The notes under the pieces: model-generated
The model's input: the letters and a program-made list of their open reading frames with translations, nothing else
Databases searched by the model: none
What the model was told of the DNA's origin: nothing
DNA from: Herminiimonas sp.
GTDB lineage: Bacteria > Pseudomonadota > Gammaproteobacteria > Burkholderiales > Burkholderiaceae_D
Assembly: GCA_028292315.1 (NCBI GenBank)
Contig: JAQGMO010000116.1
Coordinates: forward strand, 1-35,761
DNA: 35,761 nt
Direction of reading: 5' to 3'
Part shown: piece after piece, positions 4,398 through 10,534 of the stretch
Numbering within the stretch: position 1 is the stretch's first letter
Layout: every line of letters begins with the position of its first letter
Position numbers and translations under genes: made by a program

Positions 4398-6146
4398 ATG
4401 GCATCATTCACGTTACACGGCATTCCGGTCTCGCGCGGCATTGCGATCGGGCGCGCGCACCTGCTTGCGCCGGCCGCCCTCGATGTAAAGCATTACCTGA
4501 TTGCCGAAGAACAGGTCGAGGCGGAAGTGCAGCGCTTGCAAAGCGCGATCGACACGGTGCACAAAGAGTTGCAAATCATCTGGAAGGAATTGCCGCCCGA
4601 TGCCCCGGCCGAGCTGGGAGCGTTTATCGATGTGCATGCATTGATCCTGTCGGACCCGATGATTTCCGAAATGCCGCTCGATATCATCCGCAGCCGCCAC
4701 TACAACGCCGAGTGGGCGCTGGTAACCCAGATTGATGAGCTATCCGCCCAGTTCGATGAAATCGAGGACGCTTATTTGCGCGAGCGCAAAAACGATATCC
4801 AGCAGGTAGGCGAACGTGTGCTGAAGATATTGACCGGCAGCGCGGCGCTGCCGGGGATGAAATCCGCCGAAGAATCGACCGCCCACATGATCGTCGTGGC
4901 GCATGATATTTCGCCGGCCGACATGCTGCAGTTCAGGGATCGCGCATTTGCCGGCTTTGTCACCGATCTCGGCGGCCAGAACTCGCATACTGCGATCGTC
5001 GCGCGCAGCCTCGACATACCGGCCGCGGTCGGCATGTACAACGCATCTGCGCTGATTGCGCAGGATGACTGGGTCATTATCGACGGTGATGCCGGGGTCG
5101 TGATCGTCGACCCGACGCCGGCAGTGCTCGAGCAGTATCGCGAATTGCAGGCGCGCCTGGTGCGCGAACGCAAAAAGCTCAGCCGGCTCAGGAAAACCCC
5201 GGCCGTCACACGCGACGGCACCGAGATCACAATGCTGGCCAACATTGAATTGCCGGAAGACTGTGCCGCCGCCCTGGACGCCGGCGCCGTCGGTGTCGGC
5301 CTGTTCCGCTCCGAATTCCTGTTCATGGGGCGCACCGGCTTCGGACACCGCTTGCCGTCGGAGGATGAGCAGTTTGAATCGTATCGCCAGGCGGTAGTGG
5401 CCATGAAGGGCCGGCCGGTGACGATCCGTACCCTTGATATCGGGGCTGACAAGCCGCTCGATACCGCCGAGGAAACAGCGCTCAACCCGGCGCTGGGCTT
5501 GCGTGCGATCCGTTATTGCCTTGCTGAACCACAAATGTTTTTGGCGCAACTGAGGGCGATCCTCCGGGCTTCGGCTTTTGGTCCGATCAAGCTTCTGATT
5601 CCAATGCTGGCCCATGCATTCGAGATCGATCAGACCTTGCTCATGATCGAGCAGGCCAAGGCGCAATTGCGCGAGGCGCACAAGAAATTCGATCCGTTGA
5701 TTCCGGTCGGCGCCATGATCGAAATTCCGGCGGCGGCACTGACCTTGCCGCTGTTCGTCAAGCGGATGGATTTTTTGTCGATCGGCACCAATGACCTGAT
5801 CCAATACACTTTGGCGATCGACCGCGTCGATCATGAGGTTGCGCACCTGTACAATCCGCTCCATCCGGCGATCCTGTATCTGCTGTCCACGACCATCTCG
5901 ATCGGCGCCAAAGCCGGCATCCCGGTTTCGGTCTGCGGAGAAATGGCCGGCGACACCAAGCTCACGCGCCTGCTGCTCGGCATGGGCCTGCGCGAATTCT
6001 CGATGCATCCGGCCCAACTGCTGGCGGTCAAGCAGGAAATCCTGAACAGCGATCTTTCCGTGATTGTGCCGCGGACAAAAAAAATCATGCGCACCTTCGA
6101 GCCCGCCGCGATCATGGAAGCAGTCGATCAATTGCGCGTGGTTTGA
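4398..6146 (+). CDS. ptsI: PTS enzyme I, phosphoenolpyruvate-protein phosphotransferase
   Basis: Enzyme I takes phosphate from phosphoenolpyruvate and passes it to HPr. The 582-residue length is normal. The swivelling-domain active-site histidine is His197 in GGQNSHTAIVAR. The PEP-binding barrel carries the expected FRSEFLFM motif (about 303-310), the SIGTNDLIQY motif (461-470) and the catalytic Cys513 in SVCGEMAGD. All key residues are therefore intact. The start ATG at 4398 lacks a strong ribosome site. It is the last gene of the PTS group; the next 248 nt hold the metX leader. Confidence 0.96.
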   Translation: MASFTLHGIPVSRGIAIGRAHLLAPAALDVKHYLIAEEQVEAEVQRLQSAIDTVHKELQIIWKELPPDAPAELGAFIDVHALILSDPMISEMPLDIIRSRHYNAEWALVTQIDELSAQFDEIEDAYLRERKNDIQQVGERVLKILTGSAALPGMKSAEESTAHMIVVAHDISPADMLQFRDRAFAGFVTDLGGQNSHTAIVARSLDIPAAVGMYNASALIAQDDWVIIDGDAGVVIVDPTPAVLEQYRELQARLVRERKKLSRLRKTPAVTRDGTEITMLANIELPEDCAAALDAGAVGVGLFRSEFLFMGRTGFGHRLPSEDEQFESYRQAVVAMKGRPVTIRTLDIGADKPLDTAEETALNPALGLRAIRYCLAEPQMFLAQLRAILRASAFGPIKLLIPMLAHAFEIDQTLLMIEQAKAQLREAHKKFDPLIPVGAMIEIPAAALTLPLFVKRMDFLSIGTNDLIQYTLAIDRVDHEVAHLYNPLHPAILYLLSTTISIGAKAGIPVSVCGEMAGDTKLTRLLLGMGLREFSMHPAQLLAVKQEILNSDLSVIVPRTKKIMRTFEPAAIMEAVDQLRVV

Positions 6147-6178
6147 CTACGGCGCGCGACTTCGCTATTCTTACAGCA

Positions 6179-6286
6179 ATGCGCCGATTTGACCGGTCGT
6201 GGGGTCTGAGTGTCCTAATCTCGGGATATCAGCTCCAGCCTCAGCTTGCGGGCGCATGGGTTCTACCCGCATAAATACGGCTAAAG
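6179..6286 (+). promoter_or_regulatory. Candidate SAM-II-like riboswitch in metX leader
   Basis: A perfect 7-bp P1 stem pairs 6179-6185 (ATGCGCC) with 6251-6257 (GGCGCAT). The P1 5' strand is followed at once by GATTTGACCGG, and CTTGC precedes the 3' strand. Downstream come ATAAA (6271-6275) and GCTAAA (6280-6285). This order (P1, GAUUU, ACC, UUGC, P1', AUAAA, GCUAAA) is that of the SAM-II pseudoknot. GGTCGT (6195-6200) can pair with ACGGCT (6277-6282) to form the pseudoknot stem, with two G-U wobbles. Differences from the compact form are about 40 extra nt in the first loop, containing a CTGAG/CTCAG hairpin, and a small GGGT/ACCC hairpin after P1. Position before metX and a following terminator fit SAM control. 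No covariance search was possible. Confidence 0.6.
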
Positions 6287-6311
6287 CGAGCTTGATGCAA
6301 ATCTTGAATTG

Positions 6312-6346
6312 AGCCCGATAAGCTGCCAGCTATCGGGCTTTTTATT
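6312..6346 (+). terminator. Intrinsic terminator in metX leader (attenuator)
   Basis: AGCCCGATA (6312-6320) pairs with TATCGGGCT (6331-6339), and an inner GCT/AGC extends the stem. A T-rich run follows (6340-6348, one A). It lies 48 nt upstream of the metX start and after the SAM-II-like element, so it may act as the expression platform that stops transcription when S-adenosylmethionine is bound. It could instead simply terminate ptsI transcription. Confidence 0.8.
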
Positions 6347-6394
6347 TTGGTGAAAAGAGCGCCGGCCGCGCCTTTTCCCAGTGGACCAGGAAAA

Positions 6395-7552
6395 ATGAAA
6401 TCTATCGGAGTCGTATCACCACAGGTCATGCATTTCGCGGCGCCGCTGCCGCTGCAAAGCGGCGCCACCATCGCCGACTACACGCTGATGTATGAAACCT
6501 ATGGCGAGCTGAATGCCAGCCGTTCGAACGCGGTGCTGGTATGCCACGCGCTGAACGCATCGCATCATGTCGCCGGCGTTTATGAGCTGCAGGATGGTAA
6601 AAAGAATATTGGCTGGTGGGACAATATGGTAGGCCCTGGCAAGCCGCTCGATACCGATAAATTCTTTGTCATCGGCGTCAACAATCTCGGCTCGTGTTTT
6701 GGCTCGACCGGGCCAATGCATATCAATGCGGCAACCGGCAAGCCGTACGGCGCGTCGTTCCCGGTCGTGACGGTGGAAGACTGGGTGCATGCCCAGGCGC
6801 GGCTAGCCGACGAACTCGGCATCGCGCAATTCGCGGCGGTCATGGGCGGGTCGCTGGGCGGCATGCAGGCGATGGCATGGAGCATGCTGTATCCGCAGCG
6901 CGTGCGCCATTGCGTGGTGGTTGCCTCGACGCCCAAGCTCTCGGCCCAGAACATCGCCTTCAACGACGTGGCCCGGCAAGCCATCCTTACCGATCCCGAT
7001 TATCACGGCGGCGATTATTACGCCCATGGCGTGGTGCCGAAGAACGGCCTCTCGGTGGCGCGCATGGTCGGTCATATCACTTACCTGTCGAATGACGACA
7101 TGGCGGAGAAGTTCGGCCGCGAACTGCGCAACGGCGACTACCAGTTCGGTTTCGGCATTGATTTCGAAATTGAATCCTATCTGCGCTATCAGGGCGACAA
7201 GTTTTCCGAGTACTTCGATGCCAATACCTATCTTTTAATCACCAAGGCACTTGATTATTTCGACCCGGCGAGGGCATTCGGCGGCGACCTGGCCAAGGCG
7301 CTGGCCGGCACGCAGGCTGAATTCCTGCTCGTTTCCTTCTCGACCGACTGGCGATTCGCGCCGGAGCGCAGCCGCGAAATCGTCCAGGCGCTGGTCCGGA
7401 ACAAGCGCAGGGTCACCTATGCGGAGATCGATGCGCCGCATGGGCATGATGCGTTTCTGCTCGATGATTCGCGTTACATGAGGACGGTGGAGTCCTACTA
7501 CGGCAATGTTTGGAAAGAGATCGAAGGGATCGAGAGCGGGGTGCGCGCATGA
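6395..7552 (+). CDS. metX: Homoserine O-acyltransferase MetX
   Basis: MetX activates homoserine for methionine synthesis. Betaproteobacterial members are often succinyl- rather than acetyl-transferases, so the acyl donor is left open. The alpha/beta-hydrolase nucleophile is Ser153 in GGSLGGMQA; the acid and base residues lie in [11 protein letters not shown] and [11 protein letters not shown] near the C-terminus. The start ATG at 6395 gives [10 protein letters not shown], the usual N-terminus of this family, with AGGA just upstream. Longer in-frame starts (TTG 6347, GTG 6350) fall inside the terminator T-tract and are rejected. The product is 385 residues. Its stop overlaps the metW start (ATGA). 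Confidence 0.94.
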
Positions 7553-8163
7553 ACTTCATTGAACTGAGCCGCCTGCGCGCCGACCTCGCGTTCATCGCGC
7601 ACTGGATCGAGCCCGGGGCGCATGTGCTCGACCTCGGCTGCGGCGACGGCGTCATGCTCGACTATCTGCAGACCGACAAGCAATGCAGCGGCTACGGGGT
7701 CGAGATCGACGACAGCAAGATCCCGGCCTGTGTCGGACGCGGCGTATCGGTGATCCAGCAGGACCTGGAATCCGGGCTCGCGATTTTTGCCGACAGCGCT
7801 TTCGACACCGTGTTATGCCTGTCGGCGCTGCAAATGATGAAAAACGTGGAAGCCATACTGCGCGACATCGCGCGCGTCGGACGTGAAGCTATCGTTTCGT
7901 TCCCGAATTTCGCGTACTGGCCGCATCGCATCGCGCTGCTGCGTGGCCGCATGCCAGTGTCGAAAAGCCTGCCCTATGAATGGTACGACACGCCCAATGT
8001 GCGCTGCGCCACGATCAAGGATTTTGAGGAACTTGCCAATCAGGTCGGACTCGAAGTGCTTGAATGCGTCGCCTTGAATGAAGAGGGCAAGCCAGTCACC
8101 TCGTTGCCAAACTGGCGCGGCAGCCTTGCCGTATTTCGACTACGGAAAAAAACCGCGATATGA
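7549..8163 (+). CDS. metW: MetW, methionine biosynthesis-linked methyltransferase-fold protein
   Basis: A 204-residue protein of the MetW family, a class I SAM-methyltransferase fold almost always encoded next to metX. The nucleotide-binding motif VLDLGCGDG lies at residues 26-34, and [13 protein letters not shown] near 142-154 is typical of MetW. In some bacteria MetW is needed for MetX activity or methionine synthesis; the exact chemistry is not settled. The ATG at 7549 overlaps the metX stop by four bases, so a longer in-frame start at 7510 inside metX is rejected. It also overlaps the next gene by four bases (ATGA). Confidence 0.93.
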
Positions 8164-9662: not shown

Positions 9663-10534
9663 AACGCCTGATTTGCCTGCTCCTGTTGTCGACCACGTGC
9701 GCGCTCGGCGCGGCCAAAGATGAAGCGGTCGATCCGCAATCCGGCGTCACGGTCGACAAGATGTCGCGCCTGCGTCAGCTGGTGCCTGCCGAAAAGCTCG
9801 AAGCGCAGGCGGCCCAGCAATACGGCAGCCTGAAACAGCAGGCGCAGCAAAAGGGCGTGCTGGCGCCTGAACAGGATCCGCAGGTGCAGCGCCTGCGCGC
9901 GATCGCGCGCAAGCTGATTCCGCATGCGCGGCAGTGGAATGATCAGGCCGCAAAATGGAAATGGGAGGTGAACCTGATCCAGGCCGGGAATGTCAACGCG
10001 TTTTGCATGCCGGGCGGGAAAATCGCGTTCTTCAGCGGCTTGCTCGACAAGCTGAAGCTGACCGACGATGAAGTGGCGATCGTAATGGGCCACGAAATCG
10101 CGCATGCCTTGCGCGAACATGCGCGCGAACGCATGGCCAAGGGCTCACTGCTGCAGTTCGGCGCGGCAATCGGTTCAGCGATATTCGGTCTCGGCGATGC
10201 CGGACAAATGGTGGTCGGCCAAGGCGCCCAGCTGGCACTGCTGAAATTCTCGCGCGATGATGAAACCGATGCCGACCTGGTCGGCCTCGATATCGTCGCC
10301 CGCGCCGGTTTTGACCCGCGAGCAGGCGTCACGCTGTGGCGCAAGATGGGCATCATCAATAACAGCGCGCCACCGCAATGGCTGTCGACGCACCCGGCCG
10401 GCAAGAATCGGATCGCGCAGATCGAGCGAAACCTGCCGCGCGTGATGCCACTGTATGCCAAGGTCAAGGGGACCAGCGTGAAAGCGCTGCCGCCCTATCA
10501 GAGCAACGTGAAGGAAATAGCGCCTGTCAGATAA
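9659..10534 (+). CDS. Periplasmic M48-family zinc metallopeptidase
   Basis: A 291-residue exported protease. Residues 1-19 form a signal peptide with a short basic start, a Leu-rich core and an ALGA-type cleavage site. The zinc-binding HEIAH motif is at residues 145-149, with the third ligand probably Glu202 in ETDAD. A DP-rich segment and a WLSTHPAGKNRI motif near the C-terminus are typical of M48 peptidases of the LoiP/BepA group. A periplasmic role in protein or envelope quality control is likely. The GTG start at 9659 overlaps the permease stop (GTGA). The same frame stays open into the upstream gene, but only this start gives a signal peptide. Confidence 0.85.
   Translation: MKRLICLLLLSTTCALGAAKDEAVDPQSGVTVDKMSRLRQLVPAEKLEAQAAQQYGSLKQQAQQKGVLAPEQDPQVQRLRAIARKLIPHARQWNDQAAKWKWEVNLIQAGNVNAFCMPGGKIAFFSGLLDKLKLTDDEVAIVMGHEIAHALREHARERMAKGSLLQFGAAIGSAIFGLGDAGQMVVGQGAQLALLKFSRDDETDADLVGLDIVARAGFDPRAGVTLWRKMGIINNSAPPQWLSTHPAGKNRIAQIERNLPRVMPLYAKVKGTSVKALPPYQSNVKEIAPVR

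Follow-up and report, generated by a model that had tools for sequence, protein, structure and literature searches.

Which signal does the metX leader read in this Herminiimonas genome, and how would it act on transcription? Within the window, the whole 35,761-nucleotide stretch analysed here, the sequence-only reading had placed a SAM-II-like, terminator-coupled element ahead of metX at positions 6179–6346. Pseudoknot, terminator and metX are all found. We regard it as highly probable that this segment is a long-loop SAM-II riboswitch in which S-adenosylmethionine (SAM) would trigger termination before metXW by strand exchange. The leader RNA thus very probably senses SAM and halts transcription when the metabolite is plentiful. 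Anatomy, homology, promoter, terminator and complementarity can be read directly in the DNA; from them we infer SAM as the ligand, the direction of control and the strands which exchange.

Anatomy of the metX leader

In the 5′ to 3′ direction, the locus comprises a sigma-70 promoter, a SAM-II-type pseudoknot (6179–6346 region), an intrinsic terminator and metXW. The individual features are the following.

6143–6171, plus strand: sigma-70-type promoter, TTGACT-17-TATTCT (9/12 matches; 0.4 expected in shuffles)
6179–6185, plus strand: P1 5′ strand, ATGCGCC, read from the sequence; GCGCC precedes GATTT in 33/33 relatives
6186–6190, plus strand: L1 third strand, GATTT, corresponding to SAM-II G8 A9 U10 U11 U12 (letters after PMC3764141)
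6192–6194, plus strand: ACC, read from the sequence
6195–6240, plus strand: inserted hairpin between the third strand and P2 (9/200 shuffles as good)
6242–6253, plus strand: proposed antiterminator, left side (CAGCTT, CGGGC), overlapping the P2 5′ and P1 3′ strands
6244–6249, plus strand: P2 5′ strand, GCTTGC, read from the sequence (TTGC at 6246–6249)
6251–6257, plus strand: P1 3′ strand, GGCGCAT, read from the sequence
6258–6268, plus strand: inserted hairpin GGGT-TCT-ACCC at the SAM-V P3 position (8/200 shuffles as good)
6271–6275, plus strand: ATAAA, A-rich strand that by analogy with SAM-V A40–A42 should lie in the minor groove of P1
6280–6287, plus strand: P2 3′ strand GCTAAAGC, read from the sequence (GCTAAA at 6280–6285; SAM-II G42 C43 U44 A45 A46 A47 plus two)
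6313–6325, plus strand: proposed antiterminator, right side (GCCCG, AAGCTG), identical with the terminator 5′ arm
6313–6338, plus strand: intrinsic terminator hairpin, −15.1 kcal/mol, followed by the T-run 6339–6343 (from the hairpin test; not in the strict scan)
6395–7552, plus strand: metX, homoserine O-succinyltransferase type (NF047916, 679.3 bits, cut-off 560)
7549–8163, plus strand: metW, the gene after metX (TIGR02081, 250 bits, cut-off 189.5)

Transcription would start near 6178, directly at the 5′ boundary of P1. In 30 of the 31 extracted metX relatives, the motif has a promoter of the form TTGAC..TATNCT no more than 70 nt ahead of it.

The SAM-II elements named in the sequence-only reading (P1, GATTT, ACC, TTGC, ATAAA and GCTAAA) are all found where it placed them. 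P1 pairs 6179–6185 with 6251–6257 over 7 bp and leaves G6250 unpaired. The enlarged first loop holds as well: the P1 loop spans 65 nt (6186–6250) with a hairpin inside, and the small hairpin described after P1 is GGGT-TCT-ACCC at 6258–6268. For the pseudoknot stem P2, the six pairs thought possible can form between 6244–6249 and 6280–6287, with U6282 and A6285 left for triples.

The letters described as fully conserved in SAM-II are U10-12, U20 U21 G22 C23 and G42 C43 U44 A45 A46 A47, and the carbonyls of U11 and U21 are reported to read the SAM sulfonium (PMC3764141). By direct reading, 13/13 of these pocket letters are present in the window. Plain folding of 6170–6350 is unexceptional (z −1.54; 17/200 shuffles are as good), and in this fold a part of the third strand is paired to 6241–6244 instead.

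Model searches, relatives and described elements

The sequence-only reading had proposed an Infernal search with the Rfam SAM models and named a clearly insignificant score as a ground for giving up the idea. For the window itself, the score is insignificant. Every Rfam family stays below its cut-off in the window, and no Rfam SAM family is listed for 6130–6420 even at E≤10. The SAM_alpha gathering score (36 bits) is not reached by the window, which is absent from the list at E≤10, and a search of its own genome with RF00521 gave 0 matches. The window itself is therefore outside the Rfam threshold for SAM-II: an enlarged SAM-II variant in a metX leader would have been missed by a standard RNA database search. 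Hits to mir-935, sX6 and similar Rfam families were taken as chance.

The relatives provide the connection. Among 15 scanned with SAM_alpha, the ten with short loops match at 22.6–34.0 bits, none over 36; an enlarged loop is common to the five that give no match. SAM_alpha at E≤0.05 is found in 80/150 genomes of the order, as opposed to 2/14 named control genomes, none of the controls over the cut-off. We then consider a model, R1, built from 22 short-loop sequences, with the window and all long-loop sequences excluded. It scores 6178–6302 at 25.9 bits, E 5.6e-4 across the whole 4.8-Mb genome. With filters off, R1 preferred an alternative placement at 6245–6302 (23.6 bits), and a weak match at 9904–9930 on the minus strand (12 bits) was dropped.

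At E≤0.001, R1 matches 33/79 metX loci, 10 of the 33 having been in the model (79 of the 80 loci were given, L018 being left out). At E≤0.01, it matches 296/399 genomes of the order, the metK subtype described below being counted in; SAM_alpha passes its cut-off in 26/150, a figure obtained with a different genome draw and a different threshold. On SAM_alpha loci from outside the order, R1 finds 28/30 at E≤1 and 27/30 at E≤0.01. The assignments of the order to Burkholderiales and of these SAM_alpha loci to alpha- and gammaproteobacteria follow kinship labels and named metX relatives. Because short-loop kin match SAM_alpha and R1 recovers the outside SAM_alpha loci, intermediate relatives connect the window with SAM-II. 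These results suggest that the Rfam model under-reports SAM-II-like RNAs in Burkholderiales.

For the metX loci, the best 80 of more were taken from the genome collection. The motif lies upstream of metX in 33 of these best 80, L018 offering 25 nt of upstream DNA only, and all 33 have the GCGCC/GGCGC P1, read without a pairing filter. By motif and R1, the element was not found at metX in the 43 rows of the clade formed by Massilia, Duganella, Rugamonas, Janthinobacterium and their kin. L063 likewise gave no match, and the same holds for L007 and L015, which adjoin the window in the metX tree. Two further rows of that tree, L016 and L079, are labelled 'none' solely because duplicates were removed.

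The wider set contains 166 elements (185 before duplicate removal), namely 152 from betaproteobacteria and 14 from alpha- and gammaproteobacteria. Extraction demanded five standard pairs of P1 in a single register as well as GATTT, TTGC and GCTAAA, so that the set covers elements close to this pattern and leaves divergent ones outside its scope. From the 30 loci outside the order, 14 unique ones passed; in the rest, P1 is shifted by one or the sequences are duplicates. Loci beyond the metX contigs are best-scoring SAM_alpha or R1 hits and are biased to short loops. Short motifs identify the genes downstream of 151 elements as metX (71), metZ (31), metH (9) and metK (5), with 35 unnamed. The window's own genome has an element of type A, the form with GATTTGA, before metH (L127 1500–1650; G000:C48:39798–39889), with enlarged loops, a terminator and an R1 match at E<0.01.

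Covariation, which the sequence-only reading had proposed to check for P1 and the pseudoknot, is found for P1; the P2 core is invariant across the set, its letters being fixed by the search motifs. The inner five P1 pairs are GCGCC/GGCGC in 152/152 beta elements; pairing was demanded by extraction here, and the identity alone is informative. The pair −6:7, left free in extraction, is paired in 109/152 beta elements, with 87.0 expected and 0/2000 shuffles reaching this number, a test inflated by kinship among the sequences. The pair −7:8 shows no covariation (23/152 paired, 38.8 expected). With the 14 alpha/gamma elements added, −2:3 (C-G, G-C, T-A) and −4:5 (C-G, T-A) change on both sides. Single-letter rather than dinucleotide shuffles were used for the P1 pairs and likewise for the terminators, truncated folds, duplexes, insert hairpins and CCCG count reported below.

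With SAM-II RF00521, the window has in common the H-type pseudoknot, the GATTT third strand, TTGC, GCTAAA and the 13 pocket letters. It differs in its two inserted hairpins and in going unreported by the model, and the beta elements (152/152) differ in their GCGCC/GGCGC P1. Furthermore, by eye the window lacks the 5-bp P2a and offers at most two adjacent pairs plus a bulged CTC:GAG. The setting had been thought unusual for SAM-II. It is less so, because SAM-II in alpha- and beta-Proteobacteria, mostly terminator-linked, was already stated in 2007 (PMC2258182); the loops are what remains unusual.

A second described element is metXZ, reported by Leyn et al. (2014) upstream of metXW in beta-proteobacteria as a pseudoknot of conserved regions with a terminator after it (PMC4239095). 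The window likewise has a pseudoknot and a terminator upstream of metXW in a beta-proteobacterium, and the two are very probably the same element, as far as the text description, rather than the letters, allows comparison. Differences exist in how it is presented. The passages of Leyn et al. consulted make no link to SAM-II, report SAM_alpha solely in Rhizobiales and Rhodobacterales and describe the terminators as lacking sequence conservation (PMC4239095); in the arms here, by contrast, CCCG is almost invariant. Among the open-licence papers searched, we found none that links metXZ with SAM-II. The orphan betaproteobacterial metXZ element would thereby gain a likely ligand and a fold known in three dimensions.

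SAM-V shares the pseudoknot and pocket, and its short hairpin P3 lies between the P1 3′ strand and the A-rich strand, the position of the window hairpin 6258–6268 (PMC6061858). In contrast to the window with its terminator, SAM-V is described as translational and from marine alphaproteobacteria and Bacteroidetes, and the SAM-V crystal has a 4-bp P1 as against 7 bp here (PMC6061858). Membership was rejected, no SAM-V family being listed at E≤10 and a terminator standing in place of a translational platform. RF01726 is also a SAM-II set apart under the name 'long loops', listed for Bacteroidetes and marine sequences (PMC2864571). Compared by model and table description, it differs from the window in its taxa. 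It was likewise rejected: the window is unreported, and the matches in its own genome lie elsewhere at 15.8 and 15.4 bits, the cut-off being 44.

The inserts deserve a closer look. At 55 nt, the GATTT–TTGC spacing of the window is the longest first loop of the 166 elements; 140/152 beta elements have 7 to 12 nt in a sample that is short-loop-biased outside the metX contigs. The tree of metX places the window in a set of seven rows (97/92), its six nearest relatives being L003, L004, L010, L041, L007 and L015. In the first four of these, the first loop measures 34 to 49 nt and the second stretch 23 to 29 nt (usually 10), and both hairpins are present in largely different sequences. The first-loop hairpins of the window and these four are equalled by 0 to 9 of 200 shuffles, and 4/5 begin with GACCGG. 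The other seven enlarged first loops, of 21 to 24 nt, are no better than shuffles, 16 to 70 of 200 of which do equally well. For the second stretch, 20/22 long inserts beat 95% of shuffles; one of the two below is L008, for which an upstream GCTAAA was taken as the boundary, so that the 29 nt counted understate its insert. Neither insert alters the strands of the pocket. The SAM-II core thus appears to tolerate large hairpins at two places, one of which is the SAM-V P3 position.

Proposed control by termination and strand exchange, and rival explanations

The terminator claimed to follow the aptamer is present, as hairpin 6313–6338 with T6339–6343, and begins 27 nt past GCTAAA, where 26 had been given. 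A strict terminator scan of the window reported none; the stem is bulged close to the top. A terminator hairpin occurs within 150 nt in 140/152 beta elements, against 20/152 for the reverse complement. Among the 12 elements without one are L010 and five from the Undibacterium group (L036, L053, L058, L074 and L078), in which the element is kept, no terminator was found and TTCAGCCC and TTTTAGCCCC-like stretches follow.

In the mechanism that we propose, transcription would begin at the P1 edge. With SAM bound, P1, P2 and the GAUUU third strand would close the pseudoknot and hold the P2/P1 strand CAGCUUGCGGGC; the terminator 6313–6338 would then fold and RNA polymerase would stop. Without SAM, CAGCUUGCGGGC would pair with the terminator 5′ arm through CAGCUU:AAGCUG and CGGGC:GCCCG, 11 pairs in all, and the blocked terminator would allow metXW to be read.

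The view that the terminator arms are matched to the aptamer draws its support chiefly from the CCCG count. CCCG stands in 118/119 distinct terminator 5′ arms vs 9/90 background hairpins, and in 34/36 non-redundant arms, for which shuffles give a mean of 6.9 and a maximum of 13. Its complement, CGGG, occupies the P2/P1 junction in 151/152 beta aptamers and in 0/14 alpha/gamma ones. TCAGCTTGCGGGCGC forms more stable duplexes with element arms than with background arms (P 0.00054; 0.95 for the reversed strand), and the aptamer:arm duplex of the window, at −21.0 kcal/mol, is equalled by 0/90 background arms. This CCCG/CGGG complementarity suggests the antiterminator; other tests are equivocal. 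In the shuffled-arm duplex test, the reversed control equals the real strand at 29/36 each (−13.29 vs −14.39 kcal/mol). The antiterminator is the predicted fold for the transcript ending at 6335, one of 11 ends tested; at the other ten, the predicted fold keeps P1 and contains no antiterminator, and the terminator forms from 6340. In averaged truncated folds, arm pairing with the P1 3′ strand is 0.036, below the 0.052 of shuffled arms.

The main competitor concerns which strand exchanges. The antiterminator of a SAM-II-like attenuator could be built from the P2 3′ strand instead, GGCUAAA pairing with UUUAGCC or UUUAGC of the arm. TTTAGC is indeed present in 24% of the 119 arms vs 3% of the 90 background arms, and in loop-cut transcripts the arm:GCTAAA pairing amounts to 0.211 per nucleotide vs 0.058 for shuffled arms. 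However, the reversed P2 3′-strand control is also significant (P 0.0087; real strand, 0.034), and in the window the match shrinks to GGCU:AGCC at −6.4 kcal/mol vs −21.0 for the other strand. We therefore judge this arrangement unlikely here, though a genuine contender. As for the ligand, a pseudoknot of the SAM-II/SAM-V fold might sense a related metabolite, e.g. S-adenosylhomocysteine or methionine, and close variants of SAM aptamers can switch ligand, as reported for SAM-I to spermidine (PMC10853860). Our searches, which covered open-licence papers, met no binding measurements on any beta representative. The 13 pocket letters, U11 and U21 included, are nevertheless those of SAM-II and the controlled genes belong to methionine biosynthesis, which makes a ligand other than SAM improbable.

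The strand itself has also been assigned differently. Bp2_287 (RF02424) is filed in Rfam as a 'Burkholderia sRNA', and its matches here lie on the opposite strand: 14/20 scanned loci plus the window (17.3 bits, E 0.068), with values in relatives up to 37.8 bits and E 7.7e-5. In L006, L021 and 12 other loci, the matched stretch is the complement of riboswitch and terminator. All of these matches are under the RF02424 cut-off of 70, while promoter, terminator and conserved letters are all on the plus strand. The authors of the family described it upstream of methionine genes in most genomes and themselves proposed a cis-acting methionine-metabolism element (PMC3521395). An opposite-strand small RNA in place of a riboswitch is thus very improbable, and the matches suggest that RF02424 is probably the complement of a riboswitch. 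The RF02424 'sRNA' and the orphan metXZ appear to be this one riboswitch, a link which is apparently new. Lastly, the silence of Rfam and an MFE z-score of only −1.54 would suit a chance resemblance beside an ordinary terminator. Against this stand the genome-wide E value of the window-free model and the same element at the same place in the 33 of the best 80 metX relatives; it is because of this comparison with relatives that we take the observation to be real and chance to be scarcely credible. A long-loop SAM-II riboswitch acting by strand exchange is the most probable reading.

Related elements before metK

The metK leader of the same genome (L125 1500–1620; G000:C231:2585–2653) has a SAM-II-like pseudoknot with an R1 match at E<0.01; Rfam lists nothing for L125 at E≤1. 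This copy has GAGTTAAC where type A has GATTTGA. In L125 and the metK leaders L253–L297, GAGTTAAY replaces GATTT, which changes U10 to G. The metK pattern occurs in 15/300 genomes of the order (control pattern, 0) and its relaxed form in 91/112 genomes of the family (11 control matches). metK is downstream in all 28 parsed loci of 30 and, by eye, in 14/15 of the first set. These leaders seem to carry a U10-to-G subtype, type K, which looks new. By analogy, the altered U10 would correspond to SAM-V U8, the partner of the uracil which pairs with the SAM adenine.

In the own-genome metK leader, GCAGGCT...AGCCTGC is seen by eye next to the ribosome site, and for type K translational control is suggested. 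In the Massilia/Duganella/Rugamonas/Janthinobacterium metX clade the element was not found, although 91/112 family genomes keep the metK type K. This distribution suggests that the switch was lost at metX in that clade.

We tentatively raise the possibility of a two-armed SAM-II regulon in Burkholderiales that has gone unrecognised. In one arm, type A would control metX, metZ and metH through termination and would have acquired two hairpins in the window's clade, one of them P3-like. In the other, type K before metK would share this pseudoknot plan but have G in place of U10 (GAGUUAAY). Its own-genome copy shows no terminator by eye; type K would probably mask the ribosome site, and it may form an aptamer class of its own that discriminates differently among ligands.

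Two loci (L161 and L222) show type A closely followed by a type K-like element in tandem, and the next gene at L161 is not metK. In five others (L133, L134, L146, L152 and L158), type A lies directly before metK, and the terminator arms hold TTTTAGC or TTCTAGC together with GCTAAA, a copy of the P2 3′ strand.
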